Notes under the pieces: generated by a model
The model's database searches: none
The model's input: only the letters and a program-made list of their open reading frames with translations
What the model was told of the DNA's origin: nothing
Translations under genes and position numbers: made by a program
Shown here: one piece after another, positions 42,429-63,727 of the stretch
How the letters are laid out: the number at the start of each line of letters is the position of its first letter
Numbering within the stretch: the stretch's first letter is position 1
Source: an uncultured Actinomycetes bacterium
GTDB lineage: Bacteria > Actinomycetota > Actinomycetes > Nanopelagicales > Nanopelagicaceae
Assembly: GCA_903863015.1 (NCBI GenBank)
Contig: CAIPAI010000057.1
Coordinates: 1 to 64,000, forward strand
Reading direction: 5' to 3'
DNA: 64,000 nt

Positions 42429-42460
42429 CTTTCCTCCGGGCGGGCAGTGTCAGTAGTGGG

Positions 42461-47352: not shown

Positions 47353-47358
47353 ATTATA
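47353..47358 (-). promoter_or_regulatory. TATAAT -10 box for the MmgE/PrpD unit
   Basis: A perfect TATAAT on the minus strand, about 120 bases ahead of the mmgE-like start, next to the near-palindrome at 47359-47367. I see no good -35. Confidence 0.4.
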
Positions 47359-47415
47359 TGTCAGACAAAACCTTGCCAGCGGGCACTGGGTAGGTAAGAA
47401 TCCATCTGCCTGACA
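47359..47415. promoter_or_regulatory. Pair of operator-like sites around a plus-strand promoter
   Basis: TGTCAGACA (47359-47367), itself a palindrome around a central A, and TGCCTGACA (47407-47415), its inverted copy with one mismatch, lie 39 bases apart. Between them is a promoter-like TTGCCA (47373-47378), 16 bases, TAAGAAT (47395-47401) directed to the transporter operon. The context ATGTCAGACAA resembles the TNGTNNNACNA operator of FadR-type GntR regulators at most positions. No regulator gene is present in the island. Also, GATCGTAAAT is repeated at 47453 and 47470 on either side of the ribosome binding site. Confidence 0.4.
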
Positions 47416-47477
47416 TTGTCGGGTGGATTCCATAACCCGTGGGGTCCGATTCGATCGTAAATAAAAGGAGATCGTAA

Positions 47478-49133
47478 ATGTCCCTCAAGCGAGCGATATC
47501 TGCCGCGGCCATTTTCTCGATCATCGTTCCGACTGGTCTCTTCGTGTCCGCTGCAGGAAGCACCGCAGCGACTTCACAAGTGACTTTCTTGTCGGAAGAT
47601 GTCCCTGCTGGTCTTGATTATGACGGTCCATCGGCCGCCATTCCTGCAAGCCAGGTCGGAATGGTTAACCTCATGGAACCACTCGTCTACTACAAGAAGT
47701 CGGGTAAGTCCCCCTCAGGTGTAAACCTCTTGAAATTTGGTTACAACCCAGCTGATTTCCAAGGTCGCCTTGCTGAATCAGTCACGAAGAATGGTCTCGT
47801 ATGGACCTTCAAGCTTCGCAAAAACGTAGTCGGTTGCAAAGGCGAGAAGTTCACCGCCGATGACGTGATTTACACCTTTGCTCGCGCCAAGTCAGTTTCT
47901 GGCGCCGCTCCAATTGGATACTTCCTTTCTGCCGTTGGTGGCATCAAGGATTTCGCCACGTTCGATGGCAAGGTTCCACTTGGTGATGAAGTAAAGAAAA
48001 TCGATGACTACACAGTGCAGATCACTCAGGAGAAAGAGAACAAACTCTTCCTTCCAGCTTTGACGATCTTTGGTATGGGAATGTTTGACAAAGAAGGAAT
48101 GGAAGCCCAAAAGACGGCTAAAGATCCTTGGTCACATGACTACGCCAACACTGTGAACGTTCCTTCATTCGGTCCTTACTGCCTTTCAAAGTGGACCAAG
48201 GGAAGCGAATTCGTTCTGACCGCTAATCCTAAGTACTACGGTGGAAAGCCAGCCGTTTCCAAGATTGTGCTCCGTAAGGTTCCACAATCTGCTAACCGCT
48301 TGGCTGCTATCCGCACCGGTGCTGCACAACTCACCGAGCGCCTTACTCCTAAAGAGTTCGCAAGCCTTAAGGCTGTCAAGGGTGTTTCGGTTGGTTCAGT
48401 CGTTGGTAACGAGTCCCTCTTCCTTAACATGAACTACAAGGTTGCTCCATGGGACAACATCAAGGTTCGTCAAGCAGTCGCTTACGCGATCAACTATGAC
48501 AAGCTGATTAAGAATGCCTACTACGGTCAAGCAAAGAAGTGGAAGAGCCTCGTGCCTTCTACTTACCCTGGCTACTCGGTTCCAAAGACCCAGTACACCT
48601 ATGACCCTGCGAAGGCTAAGGCTCTTCTGGCTGCATCGGGTTACAAAGATGACGGTTCACTCAAGCTCACTTACGTGGCTGAGAAGGAATCAACTCTCGG
48701 ACCTGTCGTGACTCAGATCAAGGCTGACCTCAAGGCAATTGGCCTTGATGTTCAACTCGATCCATTGCCACAGACCCAATTCGGCGATCGTCAGCTCACA
48801 AAGCGCGATCTTCCATTCGCTGTAAATGATCAAGAGAAGCCAATCGGCGTAGATGCTGGTTACGCCACTTATCTCTTCTTCATCACGGGTGGTCTCAACA
48901 ACATGGATAACTACTCCAACAAGGTTGTTGACGACACTTACAAGGCGATTGCTACTGAAGCAGATACGACTAAGCGCAATGCTGGCTTAGCAACTATTCA
49001 GGAGGAATTGGCTAAGGATGTTGCTTGGGTACCTGTTGTCGAGTTCGCCACTCAGTGGGCTTACTCGTCGAAGCTCACAGGTATAACCTGGCACCCAGAT
49101 AACTGCGTACGTTTCTTTGATCTCAAGATCTAG
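47478..49133 (+). CDS. ABC transporter substrate-binding protein, family 5 (Dpp/Opp type)
   Basis: A 551-residue exported solute-binding protein of the dipeptide/oligopeptide family. Residues 1-31 form a Sec signal (KRAISAAAIFSIIVPTGLFVSAAG), and mature family segments follow: NGLVWTFKLRKNV, FTADDVIYTFARAKS, NVPSFGPYCLSKW and VRQAVAYAINYDKLI. No lipobox cysteine is visible near the cleavage region, which is unusual for a binding protein in a cell without an outer membrane. AAAGGAG precedes the ATG. It opens a plus-strand operon with two permeases, a double ATPase and GMC copy B. Family 5 proteins also bind sugars, opines and metals, so peptides are not assumed. Confidence 0.9.
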   Translation: MSLKRAISAAAIFSIIVPTGLFVSAAGSTAATSQVTFLSEDVPAGLDYDGPSAAIPASQVGMVNLMEPLVYYKKSGKSPSGVNLLKFGYNPADFQGRLAESVTKNGLVWTFKLRKNVVGCKGEKFTADDVIYTFARAKSVSGAAPIGYFLSAVGGIKDFATFDGKVPLGDEVKKIDDYTVQITQEKENKLFLPALTIFGMGMFDKEGMEAQKTAKDPWSHDYANTVNVPSFGPYCLSKWTKGSEFVLTANPKYYGGKPAVSKIVLRKVPQSANRLAAIRTGAAQLTERLTPKEFASLKAVKGVSVGSVVGNESLFLNMNYKVAPWDNIKVRQAVAYAINYDKLIKNAYYGQAKKWKSLVPSTYPGYSVPKTQYTYDPAKAKALLAASGYKDDGSLKLTYVAEKESTLGPVVTQIKADLKAIGLDVQLDPLPQTQFGDRQLTKRDLPFAVNDQEKPIGVDAGYATYLFFITGGLNNMDNYSNKVVDDTYKAIATEADTTKRNAGLATIQEELAKDVAWVPVVEFATQWAYSSKLTGITWHPDNCVRFFDLKI

Positions 49134-49174
49134 AGAACGTTCATAGCAGTTTTCAATAGTTAAGGAGATCAGCG

Positions 49175-50194
49175 GTGCGTAGGTACGTATTACGAAGGCT
49201 GGCAGTAGGTGTACTCCAAGCTTTGGGGATCACCATTGCGGTGTTCTTCGTAATACGTGCCTTGCCCGCTGATCCCGTTTCAAGAATTGTGGGAATGAAT
49301 CCCACGGAAGATTCAATTAGGCAGGCAAGGCACGCGCTTGGGCTCGATATGAGCCTCTTCCAGCAATTACTCACCTTCTTAGGTTTTCATGGCAATGGCG
49401 TCTTCACTGGATCTCTGGGGACCTCTTGGGTTTCTGGGTCAACAGTGCTCTCAGAAATTGCCATCACTTTGCCAACAACCATTCAGTTGATTATCACTTC
49501 TTTCATAGTTGCACTTCTCGTGGCCATTCCTATCGGTATGGCCACCGCCAGGCGCCCAGGCGGAAAGTTGGATAAAGGCGTATTTGGGTACGGCCTCTTT
49601 GCAGGCGCGCAGCCGGAGTTTTGGTGGGGATTGATTTTCATCTTCGTCTTCTACTTTAAAATGGGAATCGCGCCCGCTCCGTTGGGAATGCTCGACCCAA
49701 TGCTCACCGCGCCGGACGCGGTTACCAACTTTGTGCTGATTGACTCATTGATTGCCGGCGATTTCACTGCATTTAAGAGTGCGCTCGGCCACTTGGTACT
49801 GCCAGTGCTTACACTTTCTTTCCTTTTAGTCGGCCCCCTTCTCAAAATGACTCAGCAGAGTATGTCGCGCGTTCTGTCGAGCGAATTCATTCTTTACCAA
49901 CAAGCTTCTGGATTAGAGAAGAAGTCGATCGGGCGTTCTACGCTTCGCTCAGCGCTAGCTCCCATCATTACTCTTACCGGCATTCTCTTTGGATTCATGC
50001 TCAGTGGTGCCGTTCTGGTCGAATCAGTTTTCTCACTCAATGGGCTTGGTCAATATGCGGTGGCGGCCGTGCTCAATCTTGATTTCCCCGCGGTTCAAGG
50101 TGTCATCCTGGTCATCTCTGTGATTTCACTCTTTGTATATTTGGGGCTTGATCTCTTGCTTGCCAAGATCGATCCAAGAATCTTGGTGAAATGA
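49175..50194 (+). CDS. ABC transporter permease, DppB type
   Basis: A 339-residue permease with six helices; the first helix is LAVGVLQALGITIAVFFVIRALPADPV, typical of DppB/OppB. The EAA-like coupling loop lies in EFILYQQASGLEKKSIGRSTLRSALAPI near residue 240. GTG start with AAGGAG ten bases upstream, 41 bases after the binding protein. It overlaps the second permease by four bases. Confidence 0.9.
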   Translation: MRRYVLRRLAVGVLQALGITIAVFFVIRALPADPVSRIVGMNPTEDSIRQARHALGLDMSLFQQLLTFLGFHGNGVFTGSLGTSWVSGSTVLSEIAITLPTTIQLIITSFIVALLVAIPIGMATARRPGGKLDKGVFGYGLFAGAQPEFWWGLIFIFVFYFKMGIAPAPLGMLDPMLTAPDAVTNFVLIDSLIAGDFTAFKSALGHLVLPVLTLSFLLVGPLLKMTQQSMSRVLSSEFILYQQASGLEKKSIGRSTLRSALAPIITLTGILFGFMLSGAVLVESVFSLNGLGQYAVAAVLNLDFPAVQGVILVISVISLFVYLGLDLLLAKIDPRILVK

Positions 50195-51000
50195 TGCGCA
50201 AGCGGAAAATCGATCCACTCTTACTCATTGGTTTGATCATCATCGCCGGTTCGCTTTTCTTGGCGATCTTTGGAAGTTCGTTAGCGCCTTACGATCCGCA
50301 AGAACCCGTTGGCGATTTCTCTATGCCTCCTTCAGCCGACCACTGGTTCGGCACGGATGGCTCAGGTCTCGATGTTTTCAGTCGAGTATTGGCGGCCCCT
50401 CGGGTTGACGTTGCGATTGCGGTTACGGCCGCAATTGTTTCAGCCGTTTTGGGCACTGGCGTGGGACTCTACGCCGGATATTTCACGGGCCGTATCTCAG
50501 AAATCGTGATGCGAATTTCTGACATCCTTCAGTCGTTTCCGGTTTTCATTCTTGCGATGGTGCTGGTGACGCTTACCGGGCGAAATGTTGTCAACTTGAT
50601 CTTTGTCTTAGCCTTTCTCTATACGCCGATCTTTGTGCGGTTAACTCGAAGTGAAGTAGTGACACAGAGAACTCGAACGTATGTGGAAGCCGCGCGCGCG
50701 ACAGGCAACTCAGAATTTCAAATCGCTACGCGCCACGTCCTAAGAAACTCGTTGGCGCCATCACTCGTTCAACTTTCGGTCACTGTGGGATTCGGTATCC
50801 TGCTCACTTCTGGATTAAGTTTCGTGGGTGCAGGTGTGCGACCACCGACACCTGAGTGGGGCATCATGATTGCCTCGGGTGCGCCCAACATCATTCTTAA
50901 TGAATGGTGGACATCTATTTTTCCTGGAATTGCCATTTCTATCACTGTCTTCGGATACGCAGCCGCAGGAAATGCCATCGAACGTTGGGCTCGCAAATAA
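50191..51000 (+). CDS. ABC transporter permease, DppC type
   Basis: A 269-residue permease with six helices of the DppC/OppC group. It shows LAPYDPQEP and HWFGTDGSGLDVFSRV near residues 30-65 and the EAA-like loop TYVEAARATGNSEFQIATRHVLRNSLAP. It overlaps the ATPase gene by one base. With DppB it would form the membrane channel of the importer. Confidence 0.9.
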   Translation: MMRKRKIDPLLLIGLIIIAGSLFLAIFGSSLAPYDPQEPVGDFSMPPSADHWFGTDGSGLDVFSRVLAAPRVDVAIAVTAAIVSAVLGTGVGLYAGYFTGRISEIVMRISDILQSFPVFILAMVLVTLTGRNVVNLIFVLAFLYTPIFVRLTRSEVVTQRTRTYVEAARATGNSEFQIATRHVLRNSLAPSLVQLSVTVGFGILLTSGLSFVGAGVRPPTPEWGIMIASGAPNIILNEWWTSIFPGIAISITVFGYAAAGNAIERWARK

Positions 51001-52796
51001 TGACACCTTCAGAAGCGCTTCTCAGTACACGCGGATTGACCGTTAAGTATCCCTACGGTGACGTCCAGAATGTTGTTATCGATGAGTTAGACCTCGATCT
51101 ATATCCCGGTCAAATAGTTGGGCTACTCGGAGAGAGTGGTTCCGGGAAGTCATCCTTAGCGCTTGCATTAATGGGGTTGGCGCGCCACCCAGGCGTCGTA
51201 AGCGGCGAAGTCAATTTCCGTGGAAAGAATCTGTTGAAGATGGACGACGAAGAGTTGCGCCAGATCCGCGGTAATTCGATCGGGCTCATTACTCAGAAGC
51301 CTCGGCAGGCGCTCGACCCACTCGTTAACGTGGGTAAGCAGATTTCTCGTGTATACCGGGCTCATTCACACGCATCAAAGGCCGACGCACAAGTTCGTGC
51401 CATAGAGCTCCTTCGGTCCGTAGGCATTAATGATGCTGAACGCCGTGTCAATGCCTTCCCACATGAGCTCTCCGGCGGAATGGCGCAGCGCGCTCTCATT
51501 TCTATGGCGCTCAGTGTTGAGCCCGATCTACTCATTGCTGACGAGCCTACGAGTGGTCTTGATGTAACTATCCAGGCCCAGTTCCTGGATCGCATGTGGG
51601 AGCGAGCTCGTGATGCAAACATTGCCGTCCTCATTGTTACCCAGGATCTGGGGATCGTCGCGAACTATTGCGACCGAATTGTGATTATGGAAGATGGAAA
51701 GATCATCGAAGATCGCATCACGACCGAATTTTTTGCGGATCCACATACTGCCTACGGTAAAAAATTGATCCTCGCTTCGGGAGCAGGAACGAAGAGTTCT
51801 AATGCAGATGTGGCTATCACGACTACGCCTGAAATCTTGCGAGTGACCGACTTGCGCAAGACTTTTGAAGTAGAAGGCGGAAAGCGCCTACAGGCAGTCT
51901 CCAAGGCGAGCTTCCAAATCCATAAAGGACGCTCACTTGGCTTAGTCGGCGAGAGTGGCTCTGGGAAGACCACCGTGGGTCGTCTCATTTTGCGTTTGGC
52001 AGACCCGGACTCAGGTGAAGTTTGGTTTAAGGGCGAACGGATAGATTCCATTTCACCGAAAGAGTTCCGCAAATATCGTTCAAAGATTCAAGCAGTCTTT
52101 CAAGACCCCTTCGATTCTCTTAATCCGCGCTGGCCAATTGAGCGTGTCATACGGGAACCCCTCGATCTTCACACAGAGATGAGCAAGGCAGAGAAGGGGG
52201 CGCGAGTTAGGGAACTCGTTTCGTTGGTGGGTCTCACCGATGACATTTTGCCGCTTCGGCCGGGCTCGCTTAGTGCTGGGCAACAACAACGAGTCAGCCT
52301 GGCGCGCGCATTAGCCACGGAACCAGAATTTTTGATTCTCGACGAACCAACATCAGCGCTTCCGCCGGCGGCTCGTGCTGACATGATCCTGCTTCTTAAG
52401 TCATTGCAGGAACGGTTAGATCTTTGTTTCATTTTCATCTCGCACGATCTCAGTACCGTTCGCGAGCTCTGCCACGACATTGCTGTTATGTATCTTTCGG
52501 AAATCGTAGAGATGGGAACGTCCGAACAGGTCTTTAGTGCTCCAAGTCATCCATACACGCGCGCGCTCCTTGATTCAGTTCTCTTTCATGATCCAAGTTC
52601 ACGCCGTGTCGATCGTACGGTTAAGGCTGAACTTGAAGGGGAGATCCCGAGCCCGGTAGATCTTCCAGCCGGCTGCTACCTAGCCGCTCGCTGTCCCATG
52701 GCAGAGCAACGCTGTAGAGACGACCATCAAGCCTTGATTGAGATTGGTCCATCCCGATCAGTCCGTTGCTGGAAGTCGGTAGAGGCTAGTAAGTGA
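51000..52796 (+). CDS. Fused double ATPase of the Dpp-type ABC transporter (DppD-DppF)
   Basis: A 598-residue protein joining two ABC ATPase domains. Domain 1 has Walker A GESGSGKS at residues 44-51, signature LSGGMAQR and Walker B LLIADEPTSGLD. Domain 2 has Walker A GESGSGKT near residue 317, signature LSAGQQQR, and Walker B FLILDEPTSALPP, where the usual D-loop aspartate is replaced by proline. It ends with the oligopeptide-type C-terminal segment (CYLAARCPMAEQRC). The frame opens at 50904, but the ATG at 51000 overlaps the permease stop. The GMC copy B gene overlaps its own stop codon. Confidence 0.9.
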   Translation: MTPSEALLSTRGLTVKYPYGDVQNVVIDELDLDLYPGQIVGLLGESGSGKSSLALALMGLARHPGVVSGEVNFRGKNLLKMDDEELRQIRGNSIGLITQKPRQALDPLVNVGKQISRVYRAHSHASKADAQVRAIELLRSVGINDAERRVNAFPHELSGGMAQRALISMALSVEPDLLIADEPTSGLDVTIQAQFLDRMWERARDANIAVLIVTQDLGIVANYCDRIVIMEDGKIIEDRITTEFFADPHTAYGKKLILASGAGTKSSNADVAITTTPEILRVTDLRKTFEVEGGKRLQAVSKASFQIHKGRSLGLVGESGSGKTTVGRLILRLADPDSGEVWFKGERIDSISPKEFRKYRSKIQAVFQDPFDSLNPRWPIERVIREPLDLHTEMSKAEKGARVRELVSLVGLTDDILPLRPGSLSAGQQQRVSLARALATEPEFLILDEPTSALPPAARADMILLLKSLQERLDLCFIFISHDLSTVRELCHDIAVMYLSEIVEMGTSEQVFSAPSHPYTRALLDSVLFHDPSSRRVDRTVKAELEGEIPSPVDLPAGCYLAARCPMAEQRCRDDHQALIEIGPSRSVRCWKSVEASK

Positions 52797-54397
52797 TGAC
52801 CGTGCTCCACGACGAGGTGAACGTACTTGTTGTTGGCGCAGGTGCGGCAGGTGCAGCTTTCACATGGCGATTGGCAAGTCTGGGAGTCGAAGTCACCTGT
52901 TTAGAACAGGGTGAGTGGCAGCGCCCTGAGAGTTCGCTTACGGCCCTGAAGAATTGGGAATCCAAACGGATTAGTGAGCGTTCGCCTAATCCCAACATTC
53001 GTCGTAATCCGGCCGACTATCCGATTCTCGATGACACATCCATCATTAAGCCGGCAATCTATAACGGCGTCGGAGGAAGCACGATTCTCTGGTCGGCTCA
53101 CACTCCAAGATTTCGCCCTTCTGATTTTCGTGTGAAAAGTCTCGATGGCGTTGGCGCCGATTGGCCAATTACATATTGGGATCTAGCCGAGTACTACGAG
53201 ATCAACGATGAAATTATGGGAACTTCTGGATTGCATGGTGATCCAGGGAATCCACCTCGTGCACCTCGAACCACTCCTCCTGTTCCCCTCGGCATCGCTG
53301 GTTCCCGCATAGCTAAAGCGCTGAATGAATTGAAATGGCATTGGTGGCCGTCGGATGGAAACATTCTGACGCAAGATCGTGGCTCTAGGCGTGCTTGTAA
53401 CGGATGCGGACCTTGCGAAATGGGTTGCGCAACGGGCGCCCGCGCGTCGGTAGATATCACCTACTGGCCCGAAGCGCTCGCACTCGGAGCGGAATTACGT
53501 ACCGGGGCAACGGTTCGACGAGTGCTCAGCGATGCAGCGGGCAAAGCAACGGGCGTCGAGTGGGTAGATATCACTGGTCAGGAACACATCACTCACGCAA
53601 ATATTGTTGTGATGGCAGGCAACGGAATCGGTACTCCAAGAATTTTACTAAATAGCGCATCGAAGGAGCACCCACGCGGCATTGGAAATTCATCGGATCA
53701 ACTTGGGCGCAATCTCATGCTTCACCCCATTCCCGTCGTCACTGGTGTGTTTGATGAAGATGTTGAGAGTTGGTCTGGGAACGATGCTTTCGCTCTGTTG
53801 ATTCAAGAGTTTTATGAGAACGACGATACTCGTGATTTTAAACGTGGGTACGAGATGCAAGTTACCCGGGGTCAAGGACCACTTGTTACTGCGCTCGGTG
53901 GTTTCAGCCTCGATGTTCCTTGGGGCACAGATCATCACGATGTATTCGAGCAATACTTTGGGCGTGTGGCAACCGTTGCAGTTACTTGTGAAGATCTTCC
54001 TCACCCGAACAATAAGGTGACAATAGATTCCACTGTTACTGATCGGTTCGGCATTCCGGCTGCACGTATGTGGTATGAGTTAGAAGAAAATAGTAAAAGA
54101 ATGATCACACACGGCGTTAAGAGTGCGACAGATCTTCTTCTTAAAGCTGGCGCTCGTGAGACGTACGCCAAACCTTTCGCACCAGCTGCCGGGTTTCACC
54201 TGATGGGTACGGCTCGCATGGGAAATGACCCCAGGGAATCCTTCGTCGATCAGGCTTGTCGCTCGCACGACGTACCCAATCTTCTGGTGATAGATGGAAG
54301 TGTTTTTGCGAGTGCGGCTGCGGTCAATCCCACGCCCACTCTTCAAGCGGTGGCTCTTCGGGCCGCAGATCTCCTGCGAGAGGATGCCCTTGTATGA
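52796..54397 (+). CDS. GMC family FAD oxidoreductase with a cysteine cluster, copy B
   Basis: A 533-residue paralogue of the protein at 39120-40721, nearly the same length and collinear. FAD fold VVGAGAAGAAFTWRLA at residues 12-27; GVGGSTILWSAHTPRF; cysteines 201, 204, 207 and 211 in ACNGCGPCEMGCA with C-x5-C-x3-C spacing; and the final HLMGTARMG and NPTPTLQAVALR. No signal peptide. The ATG at 52796 shares a base with the ATPase stop (a GTG at 52793 is also possible), so the flavoprotein is translationally coupled to the importer. It probably oxidises the imported compound in the cytoplasm. Confidence 0.82.
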   Translation: MTVLHDEVNVLVVGAGAAGAAFTWRLASLGVEVTCLEQGEWQRPESSLTALKNWESKRISERSPNPNIRRNPADYPILDDTSIIKPAIYNGVGGSTILWSAHTPRFRPSDFRVKSLDGVGADWPITYWDLAEYYEINDEIMGTSGLHGDPGNPPRAPRTTPPVPLGIAGSRIAKALNELKWHWWPSDGNILTQDRGSRRACNGCGPCEMGCATGARASVDITYWPEALALGAELRTGATVRRVLSDAAGKATGVEWVDITGQEHITHANIVVMAGNGIGTPRILLNSASKEHPRGIGNSSDQLGRNLMLHPIPVVTGVFDEDVESWSGNDAFALLIQEFYENDDTRDFKRGYEMQVTRGQGPLVTALGGFSLDVPWGTDHHDVFEQYFGRVATVAVTCEDLPHPNNKVTIDSTVTDRFGIPAARMWYELEENSKRMITHGVKSATDLLLKAGARETYAKPFAPAAGFHLMGTARMGNDPRESFVDQACRSHDVPNLLVIDGSVFASAAAVNPTPTLQAVALRAADLLREDALV

Positions 54398-54876
54398 GCG
54401 CCATCCTCGAAAGATTCACGAATGAACTCTTGCCTGGGAATGGGCACTGGCCTTCTGCTTCAGAGATCCAAGTGAGTTCCACAATGCAGAAATTTGCCGA
54501 GAGAGATTCCCAACAGCAGGTGATGCTCGCTCAGCTTTTAGATTTCCTGGAAATGCATAATGAGACTGCTGCCGTTGCGGCGGCTCTCGAGATGAAGGAT
54601 CCAGATCTCTTCAGTTTTGCCAAAGTGTTGGCTTTTGAGGCGTATTACACGAGCCCCAAAGTTCGTGATGTGATTGCTCAACGTTCTCGCTATGCAAACC
54701 GTCCGCCGCAACCTGCAGGTTTTCAAGTGGTGCCGCACGCCGTGACTCCTTGGAATCAAGATGCGATCCTTTGGCGCAGCGACGGTACCGAACGCTCAGA
54801 GATCGTTCTGAAGATGCAGCAGAAGGACCCCAACAAGACCTGGACAGTGGAGGAGATTCGACAATGGCAACCTTGA
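54394..54876 (+). CDS. Small subunit of a GMC dehydrogenase (gluconate 2-dehydrogenase subunit 3-like), copy B
   Basis: A 160-residue paralogue of the protein at 38677-39123. The shared parts are YYTSPKVRDVIAQRSRYANRPPQPAGF, matching the YYSHPDILRVIAERTGY region of copy A, and a following acidic tail. It overlaps GMC copy B by ATGA and the HapK-like gene by 13 bases. It has no export signal. The open frame begins at 54256, but homology starts at the ATG at 54394. Together with the flavoprotein it forms the second cytosolic two-subunit dehydrogenase. Confidence 0.68.
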   Translation: MSAILERFTNELLPGNGHWPSASEIQVSSTMQKFAERDSQQQVMLAQLLDFLEMHNETAAVAAALEMKDPDLFSFAKVLAFEAYYTSPKVRDVIAQRSRYANRPPQPAGFQVVPHAVTPWNQDAILWRSDGTERSEIVLKMQQKDPNKTWTVEEIRQWQP

Positions 54877-55175
54877 TCGTATTATTCAATTTAAGAGAAG
54901 GCGTCAGCGCTTCGGAGTATGAAGCCTGGGCAAAGAGCAAGGATGTTCCCACCGTCAAAGGCTTATCTAGCGTCGACGATTTCAGAGTCTTTAGATCTTC
55001 TGGACTTCTGGGAACTGATGCATCTTCGCCTTATCAATATATTGAGATCATCGAAGTATCCGATATGAACCAATTCGGCATTGATGTTTCGAGCGAAAAG
55101 ATGCAGGCAATTGCTGCCGAATTTGGTGCCTTCGCCGATAACCCCACTTTCATTCTGTCCGAGCAGAGCGCATAG
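54864..55175 (+). CDS. HapK-like (REDY) small protein
   Basis: A 103-residue protein that I recognise as the HapK-like family (REDY-like, ferredoxin-like fold). Recognisable segments are the start TLIVLFNLREGVS, YEAWAKSKDVPTVKGLSSVDDF, SPYQYIEIIEVSDM and the end FADNPTFI. The family is named after a prodigiosin-type gene cluster, but its activity is unknown; similar small dimeric proteins are monooxygenases or isomerases. It overlaps the small subunit gene by 13 bases. The frame is open to 54750; the ATG at 54864 has GTGGAGGAG upstream. Confidence 0.65.
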   Translation: MATLIVLFNLREGVSASEYEAWAKSKDVPTVKGLSSVDDFRVFRSSGLLGTDASSPYQYIEIIEVSDMNQFGIDVSSEKMQAIAAEFGAFADNPTFILSEQSA

Positions 55176-55183
55176 GAGTAGTG

Positions 55184-56020
55184 ATGAGTTCATTTATCGG
55201 GAAGACACTGGTGATCACGGGTGCCGGGCGTCGCGCAGGTCTTGGAGAAGGCATTGCTCAAAAGTTTGCTTCTATGGGTGCCAACGTGGTCATCGGTGAT
55301 ATTGGTAAGACGCAAGGTGAGCAATTTCCTGAGCATGGTGTCGCAACTGCGAGCGAGATGGAATTACTTGCACAAGATCTCGAGAAATTGGGTCCTGGCA
55401 AAATGCGTTCATTTACGTGTGACGTCCGGGTGGAGAGCCAGGTTGAGGCCCTGATTGCTTACGCCGTCAAGGAGTGTGGCTCGGTCGATATTCTCATCAA
55501 TAACGCCGGCATCGGCTACCTCATGAGTCCGATCGTGGATACCAAAGAGGAGAATTGGGATGCTGTTCTTGACGTGAACCTCAAGGGCACTTTCCTGGTG
55601 ACCAAACATGCTGCTCGGCAAATGATTGCTCAGGGTCGAGGTGGGCGCATTATTAATATCGCCTCTCAAGCTGCGAAATCTGGCTTTCCGCACGCGGCTG
55701 CCTATGTCTCGTCCAAGCACGCGCTCATCGGTTTTACGCGCACCGCCTCGATCGAAATGGGAGCGCACGGGATCACGGTTAACGCCGTATGTCCTAACCA
55801 CGTGACGACGGGGCTAGGGGCTTGGCAGAACACCTATTTTTCGGAATTACTTGGAATGACTCATGACGAATACATGTCGGCAATGGCCTCACGTATTCCT
55901 CTTGGACGCCCAGGCAAACCGAGCGATGTGGCAAACGCTTGCGCTTTCCTGGCAAGTGAGGAAGCGGAGTACATCACGGGTGAACCGATGAATGTTTCCG
56001 GCGGAGAAGAAACGCACTAA
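55184..56020 (+). CDS. Short-chain dehydrogenase/reductase, copy B
   Basis: A 278-residue SDR. The cofactor loop is VITGAGRRAGLGEGIA, slightly longer than the classical TGxxxGxG; then DILINNAG, the serine in NIASQAAKSG and AYVSSKHALIGF with the Tyr-Lys pair. An insertion near residues 40-60 precedes the second strand. It shares ARQMIAQGRGG with copy A and follows GMC copy B, so it is the third component of the second module. AGGAG precedes the ATG at 55184; the GTG at 55181 is an alternative. Confidence 0.85.
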   Translation: MSSFIGKTLVITGAGRRAGLGEGIAQKFASMGANVVIGDIGKTQGEQFPEHGVATASEMELLAQDLEKLGPGKMRSFTCDVRVESQVEALIAYAVKECGSVDILINNAGIGYLMSPIVDTKEENWDAVLDVNLKGTFLVTKHAARQMIAQGRGGRIINIASQAAKSGFPHAAAYVSSKHALIGFTRTASIEMGAHGITVNAVCPNHVTTGLGAWQNTYFSELLGMTHDEYMSAMASRIPLGRPGKPSDVANACAFLASEEAEYITGEPMNVSGGEETH

Positions 56021-56049
56021 TTCAGCACCACCAACTAGAGGGAGAAAGC

Positions 56050-56805
56050 ATGTCAGTCCGTACATTCGCAATCACAGATAAAGCAGGCACCAAGAACATC
56101 TCACTCGACATTGTGCGGTGCTACAACCTCGGATTCACGATGCGCGATGCCGAGAAAATGCAGCGACATCTCGAGGAGTGCTACAAGCTTGGTATCAAAG
56201 AACTCATTTGCGATAGGCCCCCACTCGTGATGCCCATCAGCGACTGGGCAGTACTCACCGATACGGCCATCACGGTTCAACGACCCAAATCAAGTGGTGA
56301 AGTCGAAATCGTCACGCTCGTCGACGAGAATGACACCATTTACGTCACCGTGGGTTCTGATCACACGGATCGCTCCCTCGAAGGCATTGACATCCCTTGG
56401 GGCAAGCAAGTTACCCCCAATGTGGTTGCACCACATGCCTGGCGTTGGGACGAAGTGAAAGATCATTGGGATCAAGTAACTATGGAATGTTGGGTGATCG
56501 ACGGCGGTCATCACATGAAGTATCAAGAAGCCTTTGTGAATGAGTTCTGGACCCCAGCAGAAATGCTTCAAGGCGTGCGTGAGAGCGTCGTAAAGGTTCC
56601 AGGGGCGATCATTCTCTTTAGTGGAACAGTTGTTTCAATCGAAGAGAAATTACGATTTGCTGAGTCTTGGACTATCAAAATGATTGATCCAGTTCTTAAT
56701 CGCACGATTGAACACACCTACTCAGTTTCCGTTCTTGCCGGTGAAGTTCTCAATGATGGATCTTCAACTGGCGATATCGCGAAGGGTGCAGCCCTTACCG
56801 GTTGA
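56050..56805 (+). CDS. DUF2848-like protein
   Basis: A 251-residue cytoplasmic protein that I believe belongs to the uncharacterised DUF2848 family, related in fold to fumarylacetoacetate hydrolase-type enzymes; this is from memory. Recognisable features are VRCYNLGFTMRDAEKMQRHLEE near residue 20, ICDRPPLVMPISDWAVLTD, VGSDHTDRSLE, VVAPHAWRWDEVKDHWDQ and the end SVLAGEVLNDG. The conserved histidines and acids could bind a metal. GAGGGAGAAAGC stands before the ATG. Placed in the transporter/GMC operon it may act on a later intermediate. A hairpin follows directly. Confidence 0.65.
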   Translation: MSVRTFAITDKAGTKNISLDIVRCYNLGFTMRDAEKMQRHLEECYKLGIKELICDRPPLVMPISDWAVLTDTAITVQRPKSSGEVEIVTLVDENDTIYVTVGSDHTDRSLEGIDIPWGKQVTPNVVAPHAWRWDEVKDHWDQVTMECWVIDGGHHMKYQEAFVNEFWTPAEMLQGVRESVVKVPGAIILFSGTVVSIEEKLRFAESWTIKMIDPVLNRTIEHTYSVSVLAGEVLNDGSSTGDIAKGAALTG

Positions 56806-56809
56806 GCTT

Positions 56810-56845
56810 GATGGGGACTGGGCTGCAGGGGTCTCAGTCCCCATC
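56810..56845 (+). terminator. Hairpin after the DUF2848-like gene
   Basis: GATGGGGACTG (56810-56820) pairs perfectly with CAGTCCCCATC (56835-56845) around a 14-base loop. No T-tract follows, so it may be an attenuator or RNA-stability element rather than an intrinsic terminator. It starts five bases after the stop codon. Confidence 0.55.
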
Positions 56846-56908
56846 GATCTAACCTTGTATTGAAACAGGCGGAAGGGGCGCTCCCTACGCCAAAGAGAGA
56901 GGCCGTAA

Positions 56909-57487
56909 ATGCAGCCAGCTACTGTGGTAAATCGAGTACCTCGTGAGGGTCTTCCCGAGAACCTGAAAGGCGTGTGGGATGACGCAAATGAACGGCACGG
57001 GGACACAACCTTCGTTGAAGTTATGGGCAATAGTCCAGATTTGTTGGCATGGTACAAAGATGAGTTCTATGCCAAGATTTTTTACGGAGGTCGGGTACCG
57101 CTGCGCACTGTGGAGGTGCTTCGTCTGAGGCTTGCCAATGTGCATGGCTGTGCATTCTGTGTACGCAACGACACTACGGCAGCTTTGGCGGCAGGAATTA
57201 CTCAAGAAGAGATTGATCATCTTGATGAGTATGAAACATGGTCCTTCTCCGAGGCAGATCGCGCAGTTTTGGCGCTGGCTGACCAAATGATCCTTACCAA
57301 TGCCTTTGGTTCTCTTGACCAAAACTTGTATGCCCGACTGAAGGACAGTTTTTCGGATGCGCAAATAGTGGAGCTCGGAATGATCTCAGCCGTGCTCTGC
57401 GGAATGGCAAAGTTTCTCTTTGTTTATGACTTAGTAGAGCGACTGGATACTTGTCCTTTCACTCCTCCTGTTTCACAATTATCCTAG
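56909..57487 (+). CDS. AhpD-like / carboxymuconolactone decarboxylase family protein
   Basis: A 192-residue all-helical protein of the AhpD/CMD superfamily. The redox-type CXXC is Cys81-Cys84 (GCAFC), but the histidine that normally follows three residues later is Asp88 in CVRND, so typical AhpD peroxidase reduction is uncertain. Other features are LRTVEVLRLRLANVHG, GITQEEID, SEADRAVLALADQM and the second half with MISAVLCGMAKFL. GAGAGAGG lies ahead of the ATG at 56909. It follows the hairpin, so its expression may be partly uncoupled from the upstream genes. Confidence 0.78.
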   Translation: MQPATVVNRVPREGLPENLKGVWDDANERHGDTTFVEVMGNSPDLLAWYKDEFYAKIFYGGRVPLRTVEVLRLRLANVHGCAFCVRNDTTAALAAGITQEEIDHLDEYETWSFSEADRAVLALADQMILTNAFGSLDQNLYARLKDSFSDAQIVELGMISAVLCGMAKFLFVYDLVERLDTCPFTPPVSQLS

Positions 57488-57515
57488 AGTCAATCAACTA
57501 CCTGAAAGGCACTCC

Positions 57516-58115
57516 ATGGTTCCGAATAAAGATGTGGCACTCCTCGTCATTGATATGCAGAATGGTTTCTGCAAACCCAAGGGATCGATGGGTTCTTTAG
57601 GTTTTGATATCTCACGATGTGAATCTGCAATTGGTCAAGTACGAAAGCTCATTGACGCAGCACATAAGGCAAATGTTCCGGTCATTTACACTCGCTATGT
57701 GTACCAACCCGGTTACAAAGATGGCGGCATTCTTCCCAACGAGCTTGTGCCGGGGCTAAAAGAAATCGGTGCGCTTCAAGAGGGTTCATGGGATGCAGCA
57801 ATCGTTGATGAATTGACTCCCATCGAAGGAGATCTCATCATCGATAAGTCTCGGTATAGCGCGTTTTATGGAACTCGCCTAGAGCCACTCTTGACCGGCC
57901 TTGGTACCCGCAATCTCGTGATGTGCGGAGTTACCACCAATATGTGTGTCGAGACTTCAGCTCGTGATGCAAGTCAACGCGACTATCACACCCATGTCAT
58001 CGAAGACGCGTGTGCCGAAGTTGATCATCAACGCCATCTCAACGCAATCCAAACGATTTCATTTGGTTTCGGTTGGATCAACACCATTGATGACGTACTT
58101 GCTTCTTGGAAGTAA
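57516..58115 (+). CDS. Isochorismatase-fold cysteine hydrolase
   Basis: A 199-residue protein of the isochorismatase-like superfamily with the full catalytic triad: Asp13 (LLVIDMQNGFC), Lys111 (IIDKSRYSAF) and Cys144 (GVTTNMCVETSARDA). Members with the Cys are amidohydrolases such as ureidoacrylate hydrolase and N-carbamoylsarcosine amidase, not isochorismatases, so a C-N bond cleaving role is likely. It is the last island gene, ending three bases before korB on the other strand. GAAAGG precedes the ATG. Confidence 0.85.
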   Translation: MVPNKDVALLVIDMQNGFCKPKGSMGSLGFDISRCESAIGQVRKLIDAAHKANVPVIYTRYVYQPGYKDGGILPNELVPGLKEIGALQEGSWDAAIVDELTPIEGDLIIDKSRYSAFYGTRLEPLLTGLGTRNLVMCGVTTNMCVETSARDASQRDYHTHVIEDACAEVDHQRHLNAIQTISFGFGWINTIDDVLASWK

Positions 58116-58118: not shown

Positions 58119-59117
58119 CTAGCTGATCTCCCAAGAATCTCCACCGGCAAGCAGGGTAGCTAGATCGCCCTTGCCTTGCTTTGCGATGACGCCGTCGACC
58201 TGTTCGTGAACGAGGTCTCCGTAGCTGGGGCGAGCAACGTCGCGGAAGACGCCTACCAGTACGTGGTCGTTGGTGGAGAGGCGAGAGAGCGCGAATGCAT
58301 AGGTGGGATCAATACGGTGAGCATCGTGAATCACGATGTCGGCTTCGTTGATCTCTGAGAGCGCACGCATTTCCAGATCGCCGTCAGCTTTTCGCACTAC
58401 TGCATGCGTCGTCGACTTGATCGGTTCTCCGTGAATGAGATGGAGCAGCGCACCTTCGCGAGAGTCGCCATCTTTGATCGAATCAAAAGCGCCATCGTTA
58501 AAGATGGGGCAATTTTGGTAGATCTCAATAAGTGCCGATCCCTTGTGCTTGGTCGCTGCTTGTAGGACTCCGGTCAAGTGCTTGCGATCAGAATCTATGG
58601 TGCGCGCGATAAAGGTGGCTTCGGCGCCCAGCCCGAGTGATACCGGATTAAATGGCGTATCAAGCGAGCCGACCGGAGTCGACTTGGTGATCTTTCCGGC
58701 TTCACTTGTGGGGGAGTACTGCCCCTTGGTGAGACCGTAGATGCGATTGTTGAAGAGCATGATCTTCAAATCCACATTGCGTCGGAGGGCATGGATGAAG
58801 TGGTTGCCGCCGATGGAGAGCGCATCACCATCACCAGTGATAACGAAAACTGTGAGATCGGGGCGTGAAATCGTGAGGCCACTGGCGATAGCAGGTGCAC
58901 GGCCATGGATGGAGTGCATTCCGAAGGTCTCTAAGTAGTAAGGGAATCGAGAAGAGCAACCGATACCTGAGATGAAGACGATCTTTTCGCGAGGAACACC
59001 TAACTCAGGAAGAAAGGCCTGCATCGTCGCCAGAATTGAGTAGTCCCCGCAGCCCGGACACCAACGAACTTCTTGGTCAGAGGTGAAGTCCTTCTTGGTG
59101 AGAGTTATTTCAGCCAT
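58119..59117 (-). CDS. korB: 2-oxoglutarate:ferredoxin oxidoreductase subunit beta
   Basis: A 332-residue thiamine diphosphate-binding subunit of 2-oxoacid:ferredoxin oxidoreductase. The [4Fe-4S] and ThDP motifs are WCPGCGDYSIL near residues 19-29 and GDGDALSIGG with FNNRIYGLTKGQYSPTS. It decarboxylates 2-oxoglutarate to succinyl-CoA and reduces ferredoxin. It overlaps korA by eight bases and is read after it. The actinobacterial two-gene type matches Mycobacterium Rv2454c. Confidence 0.93.
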   Translation of the reverse strand: MAEITLTKKDFTSDQEVRWCPGCGDYSILATMQAFLPELGVPREKIVFISGIGCSSRFPYYLETFGMHSIHGRAPAIASGLTISRPDLTVFVITGDGDALSIGGNHFIHALRRNVDLKIMLFNNRIYGLTKGQYSPTSEAGKITKSTPVGSLDTPFNPVSLGLGAEATFIARTIDSDRKHLTGVLQAATKHKGSALIEIYQNCPIFNDGAFDSIKDGDSREGALLHLIHGEPIKSTTHAVVRKADGDLEMRALSEINEADIVIHDAHRIDPTYAFALSRLSTNDHVLVGVFRDVARPSYGDLVHEQVDGVIAKQGKGDLATLLAGGDSWEIS

Positions 59118-60936
59118 TGAGCACCTCCAAGGTTGCTTCGACTAATTCGGTGGTGGAGAACGGTAATCCGCGTACTTGGTTAAAGCTGATGATGTCTTTG
59201 AGAAATTCCGACCGAATCAACATAGCCATTTGGCCAAGATTCATCTCTGGCAATATCACCTTCGGATATTTACTCAGCACTTCACCCAAGTTCTTGGGGA
59301 ACGGATTGATGTACTTAATGTGGGCTTGTGCAACTTTCGCGCCGCTTTCACGGAGCACATCAATCGCAGCGCGGACTGGGCCATAGGTGGAGCCCCAACC
59401 CAGGATCAGCACCTCCGCGCCATCTGGATCATCGACTACGAGATCGGGAACTTCGATTCCCGCCACCTTCGCGGCACGAGTGCGCACCATGAAGTCGTGG
59501 TTAGCGGGTTCGTAGGAGATATCACCGGTGAGGTTGGCTTTTTCGATACCACCGATGCGATGTTCAAGACCAGGAGTGCCAGGCACTGCCCACGGTCTAG
59601 CGAGAGTTTTAGGATCTCGCGCATACGGTTGGAAGTTTTCTTGCGTCTTCGCAAAATCCACATGTAAATCGGGAAGTGAATCAACTTCTGGGATGCGCCA
59701 TGGCTGTGACCCATTAGCGATGTAGCCATCCGAGAGTAAGAAGACGGGTGTGCGGTAGGCAGTTGCAATGCGCACCGCTTCGACCGCCATATCAAAACAA
59801 TCGGTGGGAGTTGAAGCTGCGAGTACAGGCACTGGTGATTCGCCATTACGCCCGAACATCACCTGTAACAAGTCTGATTGTTCGGTTTTGGTGGGCAAGC
59901 CAGTAGATGGCCCGCCACGTTGCACATCGACGATGATCAACGGCAACTCCAACATGACTGCCAGACCGATCGCTTCGCTCTTGAGCGCTACGCCGGGCCC
60001 AGAAGTGGAAGTAATACCCATTGCGCCACCATAAGAAGCACCAATTGCGGCGCCGACTGCGGCAATTTCGTCTTCAGCTTGGAAAGTGATGACGCCGAAC
60101 TTCTTCTGCTTCGAGAGTTCGTGAAGGATGTCAGAAGCTGGCGTGATCGGATAAGAACCGAGGAAGAGCGGAAGCTTTGCACACTGCGCTCCAGCGATGA
60201 GGCCGTAAGCAAGAGCCAAGTTTCCACTCATGTTGCGGTACTTACCTTTTGCTTGCGGTGCGGGAGCGATTTCATACGAAACTGAAAACTCTTCAGTGGT
60301 CTCCCCGTAATTCCAACCTGCGCGATAGGCGACCAGGTTTGCTTCCAGAATGTCGGGAACTTTAGAGAACTTTGCGGTTAAGAATTTTTCGGTAGCCTTA
60401 GTGGGGCGGTGATACATCCATGAGAGCATGCCGAGGGCGAACATATTCTTCGCGCGCTCAGCTTCTTTACGTGAGAGCGGCAAATGTGCAAGCGCTCCCA
60501 CAGTCATTGAAGTTAAAGGAATCCCGTGCACCTTGTAACTCTCGAGCGAACCATCTTCGAGCGGATTTGTCTCGTAACCCACCTTGGTGAGGTTGCGAGC
60601 ACTGAACTCATCCTTATTGACGATGATGGTGGACCCGCGCGGCATATCGCGCATATTCGCCTTCAAAGCCGCTGGGTTCATCGCCACCAGCACATCAGGG
60701 GCGTCACCAGCTGTCTGAATATGGTGATCAGCGAAGTGGAGTTGGAATGAGGAGACACCGGGAAGGGTGCCCGTGGGAGCGCGGATTTCAGCAGGATAGT
60801 TAGGAAGCGTTGCTAAATCGTTGCCCAGAATCGCGGTATCGGAGGTAAAGCGATCACCGGTTAGTTGCATACCATCGCCGCTATCTCCGGCGAAGCGGAT
60901 TGTTACCTGATCCATTGAAACAATGGTTTTACTCAC
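59110..60936 (-). CDS. korA: 2-oxoglutarate:ferredoxin oxidoreductase subunit alpha (gamma-alpha fusion)
   Basis: A 608-residue protein: an N-terminal gamma domain (RFAGDSGDGMQLTGDRF, GVSSFQLHFADH) fused to the pyrimidine-binding alpha domain (PITPASDILHELSK, QAEDEIAAVGAAIGASYGG, TSTSGPGVALKSEAIG, RGGPSTGLPTKTEQSDL). It has no ferredoxin domain, so a separate ferredoxin is required; the NuoI-like gene at 61765 is near. GTG start at 60936; the ATG eight codons later is an alternative. Divergent from the NuoB-like gene by 62 bases. Confidence 0.93.
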   Translation of the reverse strand: MSKTIVSMDQVTIRFAGDSGDGMQLTGDRFTSDTAILGNDLATLPNYPAEIRAPTGTLPGVSSFQLHFADHHIQTAGDAPDVLVAMNPAALKANMRDMPRGSTIIVNKDEFSARNLTKVGYETNPLEDGSLESYKVHGIPLTSMTVGALAHLPLSRKEAERAKNMFALGMLSWMYHRPTKATEKFLTAKFSKVPDILEANLVAYRAGWNYGETTEEFSVSYEIAPAPQAKGKYRNMSGNLALAYGLIAGAQCAKLPLFLGSYPITPASDILHELSKQKKFGVITFQAEDEIAAVGAAIGASYGGAMGITSTSGPGVALKSEAIGLAVMLELPLIIVDVQRGGPSTGLPTKTEQSDLLQVMFGRNGESPVPVLAASTPTDCFDMAVEAVRIATAYRTPVFLLSDGYIANGSQPWRIPEVDSLPDLHVDFAKTQENFQPYARDPKTLARPWAVPGTPGLEHRIGGIEKANLTGDISYEPANHDFMVRTRAAKVAGIEVPDLVVDDPDGAEVLILGWGSTYGPVRAAIDVLRESGAKVAQAHIKYINPFPKNLGEVLSKYPKVILPEMNLGQMAMLIRSEFLKDIISFNQVRGLPFSTTELVEATLEVLNG

Positions 60937-60998: not shown

Positions 60999-61412
60999 GT
61001 GATCACTCTCACGAACGTGGAATTACCAGGCGGACGAGTAGTAGCCCTGGCCGAGATTCCGCTCGCCTGCTGCGCGCTGGAGGTCTACGCCCTGCGAGCT
61101 TCCTGCGCAGAGAGCGCGGCCGCCCCCACCGAAGCGCTCCTGTTGGTCAGTGGCACCCTCACCACCGCCTTGCTCTGTGAGATTCAAGTGGCGCTCGCCC
61201 AATTCCAGGCGTACCTACCAGAGCTGCCCCACCGGATTGTGGCCGTAGGAGCGTGTGCCACCAGTGGCGGCCCTTACTGGGATTCGCCCACCGTCATCCC
61301 GGGCCTTGCTGAAATAGGCATTCACCCAGACCTTTATATAGCCGGCTGCCCACCTTCACCCGGGGCGATAGCCAGCGCAATATCTGGCGCGCTCCAGGGG
61401 GTCTCGGCATGA
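60999..61412 (+). CDS. NuoB-like protein of a reduced second complex I
   Basis: A 137-residue protein of the NuoB family, about 25% shorter than the canonical one at 22104. All four N2 cluster ligands are kept: Cys24, Cys25 (PLACCALE), Cys86 (GACATSGG) and Cys117 (AGCPPSPG), with spacing close to NuoB. Most of the amphipathic N-terminus that reaches the quinone site is gone. The coding sequence is GC-rich compared with its neighbours. It is coupled to a NuoC-like gene by a 4-base overlap. It could carry electrons from ferredoxin made by KorAB; this is inferred. Confidence 0.75.
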   Translation: MITLTNVELPGGRVVALAEIPLACCALEVYALRASCAESAAAPTEALLLVSGTLTTALLCEIQVALAQFQAYLPELPHRIVAVGACATSGGPYWDSPTVIPGLAEIGIHPDLYIAGCPPSPGAIASAISGALQGVSA

Positions 61413-61765
61413 CGCGGAAGGTCGTTGAGCCAGGGGAGTGGGTGAAGAGCGCCGAGAGTTTGCAGCGGGCGGGTTATGACTTCTTTGATCAGTTGGGAGC
61501 TCGCGTGCTCGGTGATGGCAAGCGAGAACTCTGGCTGATCGTGAGCAATTCGACCACCGGTGAACGGGTAGGAATCTCTACCCGCACCTCGGAGCCATTG
61601 CCCACGCTCTCGCATCTCTGGTCGGGAGCGCTCTGGTGTGAACGCGAAGCGGATGCGCTCGCAGATTTCGTACTCCCCAGGCGCAGTGAGAAGAAGTGGC
61701 CAGGGTTTGCTGACCCTTCCGGGCGCACCCGCTTCACTCCTGTGGGTCTGCCAGGAGGAAAGTGA
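61409..61765 (+). CDS. NuoC-like protein of a reduced second complex I
   Basis: A 118-residue protein resembling the core of NuoC (30 kDa subunit). The family signature survives as LSHLWSGALWCEREADALADF near residues 68-88, which corresponds to the (W-ERE-DLFG) region of NuoC, but the downstream conserved DWEGHP-like motif is replaced by KKWPGFADPSGR. Taken alone the assignment would be weak; the NuoB- and NuoI-like neighbours on both sides support it. GTG/ATG overlaps couple the three genes. Confidence 0.6.
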   Translation: MTRKVVEPGEWVKSAESLQRAGYDFFDQLGARVLGDGKRELWLIVSNSTTGERVGISTRTSEPLPTLSHLWSGALWCEREADALADFVLPRRSEKKWPGFADPSGRTRFTPVGLPGGK

Positions 61766-62139
61766 TGGAGAACCCGCTACGCGCAGAACTTGCCCTCGAT
61801 GCCAGTGCCTGTACTTCGTGCATGATCTGTGTGCGCGAATGTCCCACTTGGTGCATCACGGTGGATGCGCATCAAGAGGAGCGCGAAGAAGGCGGGCGTC
61901 GGCCGATCAAGGTCAACATTCTCGATAAATTCGAAGTGGATTATGGACTCTGCATGTTCTGTGGCATCTGCGTGGATGCATGTCCACACGACGCTCTTTT
62001 TTGGGCTCCCGATGCTGAGAATGTGCTTAAAGAAGGTGCGGGTGGGAATGGAGCACGGCAGAATTTGGTTTACCAAATAAGTCGGCTCGAGGAAGCACTT
62101 CCCAGAGCGGTTCGACCAGAGAAGAAGGAGCAGAGTTGA
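61765..62139 (+). CDS. NuoI-like 2x[4Fe-4S] protein of a reduced second complex I
   Basis: A 124-residue ferredoxin-type protein with two complete cluster motifs: CTSCMICVRECP near residue 16 and CMFCGICVDACP near residue 63, and the linking region KVNILDKFEVDYG that is characteristic of NuoI. It lacks the long C-terminal part of canonical NuoI. AGGAGG precedes the ATG at 61765 (GTG at 61762 also possible). It could act as the ferredoxin partner of KorAB or as an alternative NuoI subunit. Its stop overlaps the htpX start. Confidence 0.75.
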   Translation: MENPLRAELALDASACTSCMICVRECPTWCITVDAHQEEREEGGRRPIKVNILDKFEVDYGLCMFCGICVDACPHDALFWAPDAENVLKEGAGGNGARQNLVYQISRLEEALPRAVRPEKKEQS

Positions 62140-63011
62140 GCCACGGTAAGTACTTCAACGGAGTAAAGACTGCAGCCCTACTTGGTTTACTTTCGGCATT
62201 AATTTTAATTGCGGGTGCTCTGCTGGGAGGCCGTAGCGGACTCACTATTGCACTCTTCTTCGCTCTGGCCACCAATGGAATCGGCTACTTTTTTAGCGAC
62301 AAGATTGCACTGCGCTCAATGCGTGCCGAAGCCGTTTCTGAAGCACAATCACCCGTGCTTTATCGAATAGTTCGAGAGCTCTCTTCGTCAGTAAATATGC
62401 CTATGCCGCGCCTTTACATCTCTCCTACTGATGCGCCGAATGCTTTTGCCACAGGTCGGAATCCGCAAAACGCGGCGGTCTGCTGCACACGCGGAATTAT
62501 GCAGATTCTGGATGAGCGCGAACTTCGCGGGGTTATCGGTCATGAACTTTCACATGTATATAACCGAGATATTCTCACTAGCTCGGTGGCTGCTGCGCTC
62601 GCAAGTATCGTGATGTTCTTGGCTCATATGGCGTGGTGGATTCCCATTGGCGGCGGCAATAGCGATCGCCGTGACGGCGGAAATGCAGCAGGTGCGTTGG
62701 TTTTGATGATTCTGGGACCAGTCGCTGCATCACTTATTCAAATGGCAATTAGCAGAAGCCGCGAATTTCAGGCGGATGAAAGCGGGGCCTTTCTCACGAG
62801 AGATCCGCTGGCCTTAGCTAGTGCCCTTCGCAAACTTGAGGCGGGTACGCAAGCGCGGCCGCTTCTTCCTGAGCCTTCAATTCAAACTACCAGCACGCTG
62901 ATGATCGCTAGTCCGTTTAGAACGGGAACAGTTTCGCGCATGTTCTCCACGCATCCGCCCATGGCGGAGCGCATCAGGCGTTTAGAAGAGATTGCTCGTA
63001 CCTACAAGTAA
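62136..63011 (+). CDS. htpX: HtpX-type M48 membrane protease
   Basis: A 291-residue zinc metalloprotease of the HtpX family. The N-terminus has two helices (residues 11-31 and 34-52), the zinc motif is HELSH at 136-140, a third helix pair follows near residues 150-200, and the distal ligand is the glutamate in FQADESG. It degrades misfolded membrane proteins. The TTG start overlaps the NuoI-like stop by four bases and has AAGGAG upstream. In Streptomyces, from memory, htpX also follows the second nuo cluster. Confidence 0.93.
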   Translation: MSHGKYFNGVKTAALLGLLSALILIAGALLGGRSGLTIALFFALATNGIGYFFSDKIALRSMRAEAVSEAQSPVLYRIVRELSSSVNMPMPRLYISPTDAPNAFATGRNPQNAAVCCTRGIMQILDERELRGVIGHELSHVYNRDILTSSVAAALASIVMFLAHMAWWIPIGGGNSDRRDGGNAAGALVLMILGPVAASLIQMAISRSREFQADESGAFLTRDPLALASALRKLEAGTQARPLLPEPSIQTTSTLMIASPFRTGTVSRMFSTHPPMAERIRRLEEIARTYK

Positions 63012-63642: not shown

Positions 63643-63725
63643 GGCGGATTGCCCGAGCGGCCAATGGGAGCGGACTGTAAATCCGTCGACTTACGTCTAC
63701 CCAGGTTCGAATCCTGGATCCGCCA
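63643..63725 (+). tRNA. tRNA-Tyr (anticodon GTA)
   Basis: The 83-base gene has a 7-bp acceptor stem (GGCGGAT with ATCCGCC), an anticodon loop ACTGTAAAT giving GTA, a long class II variable arm, and a T-arm CCAGGTTCGAATCCTGG. No CCA is encoded after the discriminator A. A TAAGGT (63625-63630) may be its -10 box. Confidence 0.97.
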
Positions 63726-63727
63726 CG

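Follow-up and report, generated by a model that had tools for sequence, protein, structure and literature searches.

Gene content of the locus

The window, by which we mean the whole 64,000-nucleotide stretch of actinobacterial DNA that was analysed, carries a trio of shortened complex I-like genes on its forward strand. The nuoB2-like gene (B2; 60999–61412, + strand) encodes 137 amino acids, with a shorter and altered loop before GTLT. The nuoC2-like gene (C2; 61409–61765, + strand) encodes 118 amino acids and is without the stretch found after the WHERE motif in longer NuoC2 proteins, and the nuoI2-like gene (I2; 61762–62139, + strand) lacks the NuoI N-terminal segment and starts with either GTG at 61762 (125 amino acids) or ATG at 61765 (124 amino acids). 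All 12 Cys ligands are complete, with the four of an N2-type cluster in B2 and eight (N6a/N6b) in the two 4Fe-4S motifs of I2. The B2/C2, C2/I2 and I2/htpX reading frames overlap pairwise, htpX occupying 62136–63011 (+ strand). Divergent from the trio lie korA, for the alpha subunit of a 2-oxoacid:acceptor oxidoreductase (59110–60936, − strand), and korB (58119–59117, − strand). The same window holds a complete main nuoA-N operon of 14 genes (21728–36812, + strand), and the trio stands 24 kb beyond it.

Pfam matches above cut-off were Oxidored_q6 for B2 (E = 1.5e-11) and several Fer4 families for I2, and C2 matched Complex1_30kDa at E = 8.7e-6 (26.7 bits, cut-off 22.5). The NCBIfam scores shown for the trio all fell short of the curated cut-offs, which is what a diverged copy should give. 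B2 was 79–82% identical to its counterparts in three other genomes of the genus, which, with the dN/dS values given below, speaks against chance reading frames. A B2 search of a plasmid collection returned no match. The AlphaFold model of B2 predicted a NuoB fold with confidence (pLDDT 88.4), its best VIA-align superposition on a complex I NuoB/PSST chain having Z = 15.6 over 116 residues at 2.4 Å. The C2 model was poor (pLDDT 58.9, with residues 65–118 below 50); its best Foldseek hits were complex I 30-kDa-type subunits at E = 3.2e-3, a weak recognition, with zero PDB matches at E ≤ 1e-3.

About 20 kb (37797–57515) separate nuoN from korAB in the window, and about 2 kb do so in another genome, G016. 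Nine proteins scanned in this stretch were GMC oxidoreductases, SDR, deacetylase, enoyl-CoA hydratase, amidase, AMP-binding, MmgE/PrpD and solute-binding proteins; the tenth scanned between nuoN and korAB, at 57516–58115, was an isochorismatase. A tRNA-Tyr (gta) lies at 63643–63726, and the gene upstream of it is presumably yajQ.

An unlinked nuoD2, and no second NuoH or antiporters found

The genome from which the window derives (G000) is 1.94 Mb in size and 99.5% complete. A NuoD-family search of it found a second NuoD (NuoD2, here D2) besides the main one. The gene is split over two contig ends (C36:28201–29217 and C56:6044–5844): NuoD2 runs for 339 amino acids to the end of C36, and the last 47 codons there reappear on the end of C56, which carries the remainder of the gene. 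We take the genes beside it to be DUF2520 and panC. These neighbours recur, with DUF2520-like and panC-like genes next to D2 in G159 and G099 and a DUF2520-like gene only in G117.

A preliminary description of the locus had held that no A, D, H or antiporter subunit accompanies the trio. For H and the antiporters this holds genome-wide in G000: the NADHdh (NuoH) search gave one match, in the main operon, and no second H, and the antiporter search gave three Proton_antipo_M matches, the main L, M and N, with none further. It holds for A at the korA-htpX interval, from which J and K are also absent. It does not hold for D, which is present elsewhere in the genome. With one NADHdh and three antiporter matches, no complete second nuo set was found in G000; such a set is what the same description had named as counting against it. 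Since the trio and the unlinked nuoD2 occur in the same genome, the retained unit is B-C-D-I.

Selection on the four genes

Judged from dN/dS, all four genes B2, C2, D2 and I2 are under purifying selection. Between G000 and three relatives dN/dS was 0.10–0.13 for B2, 0.17–0.19 for C2, 0.03 for I2 and 0.07–0.15 for D2, which is partly cut by contig ends; C2 was thus the least constrained of the four. The main C, D, H and I genes gave 0.02–0.04 in comparisons against G000, so that, against the main complex, constraint was several times weaker for B2, C2 and D2 and slightly weaker for I2. Frameshifts in close relatives, the other finding that the preliminary description had named as counting against it, were absent from the trio in all three. 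Reading frames, Pfam matches, Cys ligands and dN/dS together confirmed the earlier report of overlapping, shortened NuoB-, NuoC- and NuoI-like genes with full ligand sets.

Distribution across the class

We searched a sample of 197 genomes of the class with a B2 profile. There were 53 full-type matches (256–266 bits) and 22 matches of an arm-less form (166–223 bits), main NuoB scoring up to ~164 bits. The B2 matches listed reach down to ~154 bits, so the lowest arm-less B2 scores overlap those of main NuoB, and G117 (160.8 bits) and G000 (154.9 bits) were assigned to the arm-less form by their neighbourhood. Inspection of the loci in all 24 arm-less genomes showed B-C-I without A or H. Three further arm-less trios, diverged in sequence, were found at the korA loci of G188, G208 and G081. 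The arm-less form was present in at least 27 of the 197 class genomes, from 12 families, the genome count being a lower bound because other profile matches in the low range (for example in family f39) lie outside it. G085, a fragment of a full-type cluster, was counted in neither group. In family f34, the diverged trios of G188 and G208 adjoin korA.

B2 and D2 tended to be found together. Among the matches listed for the 197 genomes, 72 had both, five had B2 only, 13 had D2 only and 107 had neither; three of the D2-only genomes have a diverged trio, and another of them, G085, has its full-type B2 fragment. D2 was present in 51/53 full-type and 21/24 arm-less genomes, the arm-less genomes without a full D2 being G040 (93% complete), G077 (85%) and G059 (80%, with a D2 fragment). 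G099 (L204) and G221 (L161) have D2 without B2 among the matches listed.

No arm-less genome (0/24) had a second NADHdh match at E ≤ 1e-60; 21 had one, and three incomplete genomes had none. At the same threshold, 42 of the 53 full-type genomes had at least two. The other 11 comprised six with an H2-type match alone by score, G057 with a fragmented H2, three that have lost H2 (G065, G192 and G052) and G104, which ends at a contig edge.

Elements lost and retained

Three elements are missing jointly from the arm-less form. By motifs written after inspecting the sequences, the B loop (HDF(I/M)R-GV-PFA) was present in 27/27 full-type and 0/27 arm-less rows, the I N-terminal segment in 24/24 and 0/28, and the D loop (E-LGA-TP-type) in 27/27 and 0/26; G016, whose B2 is split across two contigs, was left out of the B loop test. 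Among three intermediates, the B and D motifs were each found in 3/3 and the I segment in 1/2. In complex I structures the counterparts of the missing B loop and I segment point towards NuoH and the membrane, and the parts of I, B and D missing here face the membrane arm and quinone site. No row that spans the Cys ligands has lost them (B, 57/57 kept; I, 54/54), and the earlier argument that retained ligands speak against decay was borne out by this conservation and by the dN/dS values.

The D loop includes the position of Asp139 (Nqo4 numbering, from an alignment to 2fug_4). This was Glu in 30/30 full-type and intermediate rows and acidic in 6/26 arm-less rows, in which the loop aligns poorly. 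His34/His38 were kept in 57/58 D2 rows, so a quinone-like use of the pocket may be possible; a His38/Asp139 pair has been described in complex I (PMC5552823, in part). The position of Tyr87 was Trp in 58/58 D2 rows, including all 27 full-type ones, and the main NuoD of the window has Tyr there (RMDY). Excerpts of the same source describe Tyr87 as a conserved residue whose function is critical at the quinone head group (PMC5552823). As Trp replaces it in full-type D2 also (for example, G054 L109 and G121 L188), the membrane-bound nuo2 may itself avoid the usual use of quinone.

Origin and number of arm losses

G054, a 9.2-Mb genome that we take to be Streptomyces-like, has the order korB-korA and, divergently, A2 B2 C2 H2 I2 J2 K2 L2 M2 N2, with D2 ~200 kb from this nuo2 cluster. 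Excerpts from the literature describe a nuo2 operon in Streptomyces (nuoA2, B2, D2, H2-N2) with a separate nuoD2 (PMC3765725, PMC8388888), and nuo2 with an unlinked nuoD2 is therefore already known. The site beside korAB, the gene order, the unlinked nuoD2, the cluster without a NuoEFG hit and the Trp for Tyr87 in D2 are all shared with the window's genus, whereas in the latter A2, H2 and J2-N2 have gone from the locus, I2 is without its N-terminal segment, and the loops of B2 and D2 are missing. The window trio is such a nuo2 locus minus A2, H2 and J2-N2, and it looks descended from a Streptomyces-type nuo2. Reduction in place between korAB and htpX, as had been proposed, is supported by this comparison of loci and by intermediates in other lineages. 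Among the entries listed in searches of the open-access literature, none described a B-C-D-I form that is arm-less and under selection, its breadth or its intermediates.

Two such intermediates, G192 and G052, group together within the full-type part of their family and adjoin G121, a member of the same genus (100/99 support). G192, on one contig, has B, C, D and I; G052 has B, C and D, its contig ending soon after C2. Neither locus showed A, H or J-N, and each genome had one NADHdh. The I2 N-terminal segment of G192 agreed with that of its sister G121 at 17/32 residues and the Fe-S domain at 106/110, as against 24/32 in the segment and 98/110 and 103/110 in the domain for two more distant arm-bearing relatives (Fisher P = 0.02 for the contrast of segment and domain against one relative, 0.15 against another). 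Both the B and the D loop motif can still be matched in G192 and G052, which are newly arm-less, although some of the residues have drifted. In another family, G065 (one contig) has A2, B2, C2 and I2 at the locus, with D2 elsewhere and J-N absent; its NuoH2 is in frame at 123 amino acids after two internal deletions (~102 and ~90 residues lost; L163 5930–6301). This 'mini-NuoH' locus is possibly a membrane-anchored intermediate. Matches of a J2 query at I2 of G192 and G065 were not J2, the query having included an out-of-frame stretch of I2. G104 (91% complete), with a full-type B2 and no H2 found, was considered as an arm loss and not counted, as its contig ends within C2.

In an unrooted tree of 59 rows and 557 columns, from which the trait columns were left out, the 28 arm-less rows all fell to the same side of a poorly supported branch (76/80; 79% of bootstraps); the tree had many long branches. 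In AU tests, joining the arm-less and full-type members of family f14 in one clade was not rejected (P = 0.41), and the same constraint for f28 was rejected (P = 0.023). Given the weak arm-less branch and these results, we limit our claim to three or more losses: the arm would have been lost at least in the arm-less group, in G192 with G052, and in G065. The nested intermediates, together with the B loop and I segment being shared with main NuoB and main NuoI, respectively, indicate that the full form is the older state.

Relation to KorAB

The neighbourhood suggests that the trio is a dedicated partner of KorAB and re-oxidises the ferredoxin that KorAB reduces. korAB divergently adjoins the trio in many lineages, KorA was found at E ≤ 1e-100 in 21/24 arm-less genomes (that of G040 reaching the contig end) and as fragments at contig ends in two more (G051 and G094), and to our knowledge the electron outlet of actinobacterial KorAB is not settled. 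However, the sister species G001 and G002 (both 99% complete) lost korAB in one shared clean deletion, which left about the first 32 codons of korA, 29 residues still matching (L080 7804–7890, L081 12133–12219); neither has a KorA at E ≤ 1e-20 or a POR_N protein at E ≤ 0.001. Yet both keep the trio and D2 (visible to the contig ends, 130 and 195 codons), and the four genes pooled gave dN/dS 0.19 between them (bootstrap 0.10–0.35, with only 130 D2 codons in G001). In G001–G003, htpX is internally deleted. G159 (98% complete), from another family, likewise has an arm-less trio and D2 without any POR_N protein. KorA is also far more widespread, occurring in 152/197 genomes against 77 with B2 among the matches listed, and within the window's family it occurs with neither B2 nor D2 in seven genomes belonging to three further genera.

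The korAB deletions, and KorA without B2 or D2, make the korAB-trio neighbourhood better read as an inherited position than as joint function. The arm-less loci weaken the obvious reading that the trio serves KorAB, and the functional link drawn in the preliminary description was not supported, as the trio persists in three genomes without a POR_N protein. We regard a dedicated partnership as unlikely; KorAB and the trio possibly share a ferredoxin pool.

Proposed enzyme and alternative explanations

The trio and the unlinked nuoD2 on balance probably encode a soluble, non-pumping, membrane-detached complex I core (B-C-D-I) that acts as an oxidoreductase. The observations in support are the homology, the ligands, the D2 partner, the single H and antiporter set found, the joint loss of three elements, purifying selection and retention without KorAB. 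From co-occurrence we infer that B2, C2, D2 and I2 would assemble into one complex; its solubility, the direction of electrons, and their donor and acceptor are likewise inferred. The two 4Fe-4S clusters of I2 would be fed by a carrier of low potential, probably ferredoxin or one of the flavodoxin type, with ferredoxin suggested by the homology to NuoI. From there electrons would move on to the N2-type cluster in B2 and exit to an acceptor at the B2/D2 pocket, which no NuoH would close. C2 would give support and the D2 pocket would adjoin the last cluster, so that the retained parts could form a continuous wire, and B-C-D-I by itself could not pump protons. The lost parts are those that couple this wire to the membrane, which favours a soluble oxidoreductase. 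Of the readings suggested before, a 'small soluble electron carrier' came nearest, with a B-C-D-I enzyme likelier than a carrier. More tentatively, the combined proposal of a soluble, non-pumping B-C-D-I class, with Trp at the quinone site, at least three arm losses, independence of KorAB and an acceptor other than membrane quinone, seems to us plausible and falls somewhat short of probable.

B2-C2-D2-I2 might instead substitute for the main B, C, D and I by docking on the membrane arm of the main complex (NuoA/H/J-N), giving a ferredoxin-fed pump, much as had been suggested earlier for B, C and I. The single NuoH found, in a complete main operon, means that the arm could be shared, and B2 and D2 are homologous to Q-module subunits. 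Against this, an absence of the arm genes goes together with that of the I segment, B loop and D loop, parts that would face that arm and its quinone site. In G192, which has lost the arm, the I segment is the first of these to decay, and full-type relatives keep all three together with their own H2; docking is accordingly disfavoured, and we hold it to be distinctly unlikely. The fold could also have a non-catalytic use, as a redox sensor, Fe-S scaffold or assembly factor, to which the absence of a recognised acceptor site and the invariant Trp at the Tyr87 position would lend themselves. Ligands for three clusters in two proteins are all kept, and D with them, which would befit a wire and would seem more than a sensor needs, and such a use strikes us as no more probable than docking. 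That the genes are a decaying, functionless remnant is very improbable: their shortened subunits, missing partners, long tree branches and weaker constraint than the main complex would suit one, but the trio is intact in four species at dN/dS 0.03–0.19, arm-less members of 12 families keep the ligands and the unlinked D2 is also retained.

Relation to known systems

In the usual picture, complex I was built by adding a membrane arm to soluble hydrogenase-like modules; in these genomes that arm seems to have been removed again, and repeatedly. As the electron wire is kept under selection and relatives are caught midway, it becomes testable what a Q-module can do without a membrane arm, and which segments of NuoB, D and I are there solely to serve that arm. 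The arm-less form resembles the respiratory Q-module (NuoBCDI) in its four subunits and Fe-S ligands, and the predicted B2 structure superposes on NuoB/PSST. It differs in that no H, antiporters or N-module of its own were found and in having Tyr87 replaced and the Asp139 loop lost.

Complex I-like enzymes of 11 subunits keep the membrane arm, unlike the arm-less form. According to excerpts of two sources they lack NuoEFG (PMC3765725, PMC11238625). In common with them, the cluster described here has no NADH module. The [NiFe]-hydrogenases of groups 3 and 4 also have a ferredoxin-like subunit, and their small and large subunits are homologous to those here; D2 differs from them in being without the CxxC metal motif, a single CLGC occurring among 58 rows, in G201.
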